From assembly GCA_016839765.1 (NCBI GenBank), contig JAEOTP010000069.1:50629-114628 (forward strand): 64,000 nucleotides of DNA, in the 5' to 3' direction. Below, piece after piece: positions 43,925-43,998 of the stretch; the stretch's first letter is position 1; each line of letters begins with the position of its first letter. Origin of the DNA: Promethearchaeota archaeon. Its GTDB lineage: Archaea; Asgardarchaeota; Lokiarchaeia; Sigyniarchaeales; SOKP01. The notes under the pieces are model-generated. The model had not been told where the DNA came from. It did no database searches and saw only the letters and a list, made by a program, of their open reading frames with translations. The translations under genes and the position numbers were made by a program.

Positions 43925-43998
43925 AGATGTCATTGATATAAACTTAAACACCTTTATGGTGAGTGTTTATTGAGAAATCCACCTGCAAGGTGGCATCT
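43925..43998 (+). promoter_or_regulatory. Candidate SECIS element in selD 3'UTR
   Basis: ATAAAC (43938-43943) pairs GTTTAT (43965-43970), flanked by TGAT (43934-43937) opposite TGAG (43971-43974), a tandem G.A quartet; unpaired AAA (43946-43948); apical CACC/GGTG mini-stem; AGATGTC (43925-43931) can pair GGCATCT (43992-43998). Confidence 0.7.

Follow-up and report, generated by a model that had tools for sequence, protein, structure and literature searches.

We analysed a stretch of 64,000 nucleotides from a Promethearchaeota archaeon (contig JAEOTP010000069.1, assembly GCA_016839765.1), in the following called the window, and focus on the selenocysteine insertion sequence (SECIS) element directly 3' of selD, which is itself a selenoprotein gene and ends with the stop codon TAA at 43922-43924. 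Sequence evidence from about 105 relatives, i.e. 63 aligned 3' untranslated regions (3'UTRs) of same-family selD genes and 42 further selD genes, confirms this element as a real, conserved SECIS beyond chance. The same evidence identifies its core as a canonical 3-nt kink-turn with a flanking C-helix and the adjacent CCACC/GGUGG hairpin (P4) as an arm of the element, completing a three-way junction that is found across the phylum. Eukaryote-like SECIS elements in Asgard selD genes were already published in 2016 and 2024, and the window element belongs to that type. According to Huang, Xiao and Zhang (2024), 85% of the selenoprotein genes of Asgard archaea have such elements, those of type II being found mainly in selD, and SelD was proposed as an intermediate towards eukaryotes (PMC11227280). 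A sequence-only reading of the window had described the site as a eukaryote-like, transitional SECIS hairpin. All motifs it named are present where it placed them, and the published view it referred to, that Asgard SECIS elements are intermediate between archaeal and eukaryotic ones, can be traced in the literature (PMC11227280, and Mariotti 2016 through citations in that paper and in PMC9499178). Its interpretation is partly supported: the G.A core, the apical adenines and the ministem are indeed eukaryote-like, whereas the C-helix of the kink-turn, the three-way junction and a UUGA instead of an AUGA core are not.

Conservation and covariation of the element

The main alignment of the 63 3'UTRs was computed with MAFFT, with no structure given. 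Hereby, 94.1% of the pair cells are formed and 17 of 20 pairs show changes on both sides. Compensatory cells amount to 112, compared to a mean of 27 after shuffling, a comparison in which relatedness stays in and is offset in part only by exchanges within genera and by the family-wide spread. The exchanges were checked for their occurrence within several genera. If the partner columns are slid to other registers, pairing falls to 30-55%, and RNAalifold returns, from the alignment alone, three helices that correspond to the outer stem P1, the P2 arm and P4. P1 is paired in 98.4% of cells with changes on both sides in three of four scored pairs, while the AUAAAC/GUUUAU stem of the sequence-only reading (P2) reaches 99.7%, with changes on both sides in all six pairs. 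The apical CACC-UUUAU-GGUG ministem (P3), taken in that reading as a sign of form 2, is present as well and kept in 94.2% of cells. Its column pair 25-36 is AU in 48 and GC in 8 sequences, and the ministem is missing in one relative (G107). The unpaired AAA does lie at a distance of 12 nt, counted from the first base of UGAU, and its columns are invariant or nearly so. Altogether, only eight columns are invariant, namely the loop G of P4, four columns of the kink-turn core (L3-GA/A), the apical AA and one base of P1. The covariation across Asgard selD 3'UTRs that had been suggested as a check is thus found, and the lack of conservation that would have spoken against the hairpin is not what the alignment displays.

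With a three-way-junction descriptor, 38 of 46 elements reach or exceed the top score of 920 shuffles; the remaining eight, which do not rise above the shuffles, are excluded from the support. In two of these eight (G110, G111) the three-armed layout is visible by eye, and in another (G078) the selD match contains an extra in-frame TAA, its 3' end probably being placed too far downstream. When both strands of the window are scanned, the SECIS site ranks first (score 24.7; runner-up 20.6). The covariance model R1 recovers the site as the sole credible match in its own 3.3 Mb genome (E=7e-17). Two weak R1 matches (L113, E 0.09; L114, E 0.7) fall into ordinary coding regions with no selenoprotein there and were discarded as chance. 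A covariance model of the family matches 57 of 232 phylum genomes, all of which possess a selD gene encoding selenocysteine (Sec-selD), and the matches adjoin selD wherever that gene was located. In Rfam, none of the SECIS families matches between 43800 and 44100 at thresholds up to E = 10, nor does any in a scan of the window. The fold of the single sequence is of modest stability (minimum free energy (MFE) -17.4 kcal/mol, z -1.62, 16 of 200 shuffles as good). Hence, conservation and covariation, and not single-sequence stability, decide on the reality of the element.

Table 1. Positions of the selD gene and of the parts of its SECIS element in the window.
Feature	Positions	Strand	Evidence
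SECIS element, entire three-way junction	43925..43998	+	covariation in 63 homologues; covariance model R1 E=7e-17
P1 outer stem, 5' strand AGAUG	43925..43929	+	pairs with CAUCU
P1 outer stem, 3' strand CAUCU	43994..43998	+	pairs with AGAUG
Kink-turn C-helix, 5' strand UC	43930..43931	+	pairs with 43974-43975
Kink-turn C-helix, 3' strand GA	43974..43975	+	pairs with 43930-43931
Kink-turn 3-nt bulge L1-L3, AUU (L3 = U)	43932..43934	+	L3 conservation
Kink-turn core GA, 5' strand (G.A / A.G)	43935..43936	+	invariant 63/63
Kink-turn core GA, 3' strand	43972..43973	+	GA in 61/63, A invariant
P2 stem, 5' strand AUAAAC	43938..43943	+	pairs with GUUUAU 43965-43970
P2 stem, 3' strand GUUUAU	43965..43970	+	pairs with AUAAAC 43938-43943
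Unpaired apical adenines AAA	43946..43948	+	two A columns invariant, third 62/63
P3 apical ministem CACC-UUUAU-GGUG	43949..43961	+	two scored pairs in 94.2% of cells
P4 second hairpin CCACC-UGCAA-GGUGG, abutting P1	43979..43993	+	covariation, invariant loop G
selD (selenophosphate synthetase)	42896..43924	+	open frame with TGA read as Sec; TIGR00476
Sec UGA codon, U18 in HGUSCK active site	42947..42949	+	translation; TGA at same position in relatives

The kink-turn and the second hairpin

The core is formed by UGAU (43934-43937) and UGAG (43971-43974), which the sequence-only reading had arranged as a eukaryotic quartet of U.U, A.G, G.A and U.G. The tandem G.A core of this quartet is retained in our analysis: the sequence of the G.A and A.G pairs is conserved, their pairing geometry being predicted from it. 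The bottom U.G is replaced, since G43974 pairs with C43931 in a C-helix pair that covaries. The core follows the order of a canonical kink-turn, i.e. a C-helix, a bulge of three bases with U as the last, and then G.A and A.G. In the alignment the corresponding column pair 6-53 is CG in 42, UA in 16 and UG in 3 sequences and unbroken throughout; column pair 5-54 is UA in 49, AU in 5 and CG in 1. The C-helix exchanges arise inside genera g1, g8 and g9, so that the compensations have more than one origin. An independent test was carried out on the 42 selD 3'UTRs outside the alignment, where P2 was chosen blind to the C-helix bases. Here, the 3-nt register gives 41 of 42 first pairs and 38 of 42 double pairs and stands out as a clear maximum of 28 registers, with first pairs of type CG (27), UA (5), GC (5), UG (3) and AU (1). 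L3 is U in 63 of 63 aligned sequences and 41 of 42 outside the alignment, and the 3' strand of the core reads GA in 39 and AA in 3 of the latter. The base preceding the UGA of the core is U in the window and in its closest relative (G141), and A, giving AUGA, in most relatives. One group of phylum genomes shows many GUGA cores, matching the report of Huang 2024 for Thorarchaeia. As a separate observation, in many selD genes of group f28 (L086-L111) the UGA stop codon is at the same time the UGA of the kink-turn, which places the 5' strand of the element within the coding sequence.

P4 is located between the kink-turn and P1 and abuts the latter with zero or few nucleotides in between. Its pairs covary (column pair 61-72: AU 36, GC 22; column pair 63-70: CG 26, UA 19) and its loop G is invariant in 63 of 63 elements. 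A loop of the type GC[A/G] occurs in 35 of 37 further selD elements compared to 22% of shuffled hairpins (binomial p 5e-21, uncorrected for relatedness, with most of the 37 coming from other families). The sequence-only reading had regarded this hairpin (CCACCT-GCA-AGGTGG) as a competitor of the outer stem. Instead, both coexist, as P1 comprises AGAUG/CAUCU only and P4 itself covaries.

The features shared with the published Asgard eSECIS-like type II (PMC11227280; Mariotti 2016 for Lokiarchaeota) are the location in the selD 3'UTR, the GA_GA core, the upper stem, the adenines and the ministem. Compared to the type II definition, the element lies, as described, 3' of a gene with an in-frame UGA, and the two GA dinucleotides at 43935-43936 and 43972-43973 conform to the core 5'-GA_[G/A]A-3'. 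The upper stem, given as 7-15 bp with at most two mismatches, comprises six Watson-Crick pairs here, or seven positions with one mismatch when the U.U is counted. The apex consists of a ministem of 4 bp, a bulge of 5+3 nt (UUAAA / AGU) and a loop of 5 nt and so falls within the published ranges (ministem 2-8 bp, bulge 4-12 nt, apical loop 2-6 nt). A difference is UUGA in the window genome versus AUGA in the Asgard type II. Moreover, the published text describes one hairpin with core, upper stem, apical loop, internal loop and lower stem, the surrounding nucleotides being not highly conserved (PMC11227280), and a 2022 review assigns only one apical loop to Lokiarchaeota SECIS elements (PMC9499178), whereas in our analysis the kink-turn is canonical, its C-helix covaries and a further hairpin is present. 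Neither such a hairpin nor a C-helix is mentioned in the Asgard SECIS literature that we searched. Provisionally, the second arm is therefore new relative to published Asgard descriptions, its novelty being limited because the drawings in Mariotti 2016 could show one.

With form 2 of the eukaryotic SECIS the element shares the tandem G.A, adenines about 12 nt above it, the ministem and the 3'UTR position. The eukaryotic core, however, has a large internal loop and is described as a noncanonical kink-turn (PMC3706390), whereas a 3-nt bulge and a C-helix are seen here; it reads AUGA, rarely GUGA, in place of UUGA, and its two helices with an internal loop lack a second hairpin comparable to the covarying P4. 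Methanogen SECIS elements (PMC11881835, PMC9622424) likewise reside in the 3'UTR, and in the vhuD genes of Methanococcales the whole three-way junction is shared. The window apex (UUAAA / AGU) differs from their eaSECIS motif, a GAA_A bulge flanked by G-C pairs. The L7Ae-bound canonical kink-turns of box C/D, H/ACA and ribosomal RNAs have the C-helix, the 3-nt bulge, G.A and A.G and a non-canonical helix in common with the element, including a Watson-Crick C-helix flanking the 3-nt bulge and the second GA. Unlike those, the window kink-turn sits inside a three-way junction of an mRNA 3'UTR, and its L7Ae binding is a prediction.

Candidate readers and alternative explanations

A SECIS in the 3'UTR would cause the ribosome to read UGA-18 of selD as selenocysteine. 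The genome encodes two proteins of the L7Ae family according to PF01248, L7Ae and L30e. A canonical kink-turn is the standard target of L7Ae. SBP2, the protein bound to eukaryotic SECIS elements, is absent from all Asgard genomes (PMC11227280). Taken together, the canonical kink-turn, the lack of an Asgard SBP2 and the restriction of the family to these two members led us to the proposal that the reader is L7Ae or L30e. We thus favor, with moderate confidence, a model in which the selD SECIS folds into a three-way junction built around a canonical kink-turn. There, ribosomal L7Ae or L30e would dock, taking the role of SBP2. The bound protein, along with the apical adenines, would recruit EFSec carrying Sec-tRNA(Sec), and P4 with its GCR loop may support this by holding the junction geometry or by contacting the ribosome or EFSec. 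What we infer here is that L7Ae or L30e binds, that EFSec is recruited and that P4 contributes in this way.

Several observations weigh against this model. The MFE of the single sequence favors another register of P2 (-17.4 kcal/mol, the conserved fold lying between -14.3 and -15.9 kcal/mol), with an energy model that credits no kink-turn G.A pairs, and the second C-helix pair is T-T in five sequences of genus g1. Furthermore, L30 of a methanogen does not bind the methanogen element in vitro (PMC9499178), and a lokiarchaeal SECIS is non-functional in M. maripaludis (PMC11881835), even though L7Ae is general in archaea. The latter two results are qualified by the fact that the methanogen elements usually assayed lack this kink-turn.

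A possible but clearly less probable explanation is that the kink-turn is read by EFSec itself or by an Asgard-specific protein encoded near the Sec genes. No SECIS-binding factor of archaea is known (PMC8211752), EFSec carries Asgard-specific conserved glycines and an Asgard-only protein of unknown function is encoded near the Sec genes (both Huang 2024, PMC11227280), and the failure of methanogen L30 to bind in vitro (PMC9499178) fits as well. On the other hand, the methanogen SECIS is not a ligand of archaeal SelB (PMC9499178, PMC8211752). Another objection comes from the architecture of the core itself. It is the very type of kink-turn that L7Ae normally recognizes. In eukaryotes, SBP2 and L30 bind the SECIS core, other members of the L7Ae family do not (PMC3706390).

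It is unlikely that the published two-helix eukaryote-like SECIS suffices and that CCACC/GGUGG is a bystander, e.g. a terminator or an mRNA-stabilising hairpin, enclosed by chance. The single apical loop stated for Lokiarchaeota (PMC9499178) would agree with this. P4, however, covaries together with the surrounding P1, directly abuts it and has the invariant loop G and the recurrent GC[A/G] loop described above; as no T-tract terminator is predicted at P4, its function as terminator was discarded. Slightly less likely still, the element could be a canonical SECIS of the methanogen type. Its functional core would then be formed by the A-rich loop at the apex and the ministem, the kink-turn and P4 being scaffold only. 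In line with this, the Methanococcales vhuD elements carry GAA_A and a G-C clamp on top of the same P2 where Asgard elements have AAA and the ministem, methanogen selD genes keep an apex-type hairpin only, and in M. maripaludis a minimal hairpin is functional (PMC9622424, PMC11881835). The window element, though, has no GAA_A bulge, its apical adenines are no more conserved than the kink-turn core and the loop G of P4, and the lokiarchaeal SECIS fails in just this host (PMC11881835). Finally, a chance hairpin or an unrelated 3'UTR structure, to which the non-significant single-sequence stability (z -1.62) might point, is extremely improbable and refuted by the covariation, the shuffle scores, the restriction of the model matches to Sec-selD genomes and the register of the C-helix.

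The host gene and the layout in other genes

The window genome (3.3 Mb in 96 contigs) encodes a tRNA-Sec. The selD product scores 192 bits with TIGR00476 (NCBIfam selD; cut-off 125), and its closest solved structures are chains labelled Selenide, water dikinase 1. Among the 232 phylum genomes, which are metagenome-assembled genomes (MAGs) and possibly mixtures, 125 contain selD matches (E <= 1e-30), and nearly all matches reaching the N-terminus have exactly one in-frame TGA. From the features of selD, core and stop codon, which fit the published Asgard description, we infer that these genomes are Asgard archaea. Many relatives (G114-G128, G133-G156; e.g. L005, L015, L021, L023) possess two tandem selD genes, each with its own in-frame TGA and its own SECIS, while the window genome has a single selD. 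A further side observation concerns five same-family selD genes (L016, L019, L027, L051, L053), which carry a type I element instead of the type II SECIS. This element lacks the ministem but retains the kink-turn and a second hairpin, as though modules had been swapped among selenoprotein genes.

By means of PF02662 we found three vhuD-type genes in the window genome (L156, L157, L159), each with two in-frame TGAs. Across the phylum, the PF02662 matches listed are almost only Cys forms, and in the four stretches matched by PF00374 in the own genome there is no in-frame TGA. The three vhuD elements show the three-armed layout without a ministem (type I), with the C-helices AG/CU, UG/CG and UAG/CUA and the second-hairpin loops UGCAA, AAAGCA and UAGCC; the element of L159 lies barely above its best shuffle (23.9 versus 23.0). 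The three genes follow hdrA genes with one in-frame TGA each, which implies a sizeable selenoproteome.

Six vhuD genes of Methanococcales (L165-L170) exhibit the complete three-way junction, including the C-helix of the kink-turn and the second hairpin, their P2 apex carrying the GAA_A motif and a G-C clamp in place of the Asgard AAA and ministem. In two of them (L167, L169) the descriptor picked another hairpin, and the second hairpin CCUCC/GG(A/G)GG was read by eye. Methanogen selD genes (L198-L203), where the 3' end is readable, have a short GAA_A-type hairpin only (CAA in two), with no kink-turn and no second hairpin. This occurrence of the layout in methanogen vhuD and not in methanogen selD is the one datum bearing on the term transitional, which is otherwise an evolutionary interpretation. 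A vhuD relative (L171) whose product is 58% identical to that of the methanogen gene stems from a record titled as a Chloroflexi MAG and may reflect gene transfer or mis-binning.

Tentatively, and with the odds rather against it, the ancestral archaeal SECIS may have been an L7Ae-bound kink-turn three-way junction that survives in Asgard genes and methanogen vhuD, while eukaryotes lost the second hairpin as SBP2 took over and methanogen selD kept the apex only. If so, the large internal loop and the noncanonical kink-turn of eukaryotes would be a remnant of this loss, SBP2 would be a paralogue within the L7Ae family, and the SECIS-reading protein of archaea, none of which has been identified (PMC8211752, PMC2933860, PMC9499178), would be L7Ae or L30e. 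The layout common to Asgard and methanogen vhuD elements allows a base-by-base correspondence of archaeal and eukaryotic elements, in which the Asgard AAA and ministem are matched with the methanogen GAA_A and clamp and the kink-turn lies beneath both, and it bears on the origin of the eukaryotic system. The kink-turn with its defined C-helix and the GC[A/G]-loop hairpin offer targets for mutation, with L7Ae and L30e as first candidates for the reader. The three-way-junction model, which has zero matches in genomes without Sec-selD, could moreover sharpen searches for Asgard selenoproteins.

Apart from the selenocysteine system, a tRNA match on the forward strand of the window at 53720-53847 distributes 71 model positions over 128 bases, which suggests an intron-containing gene.
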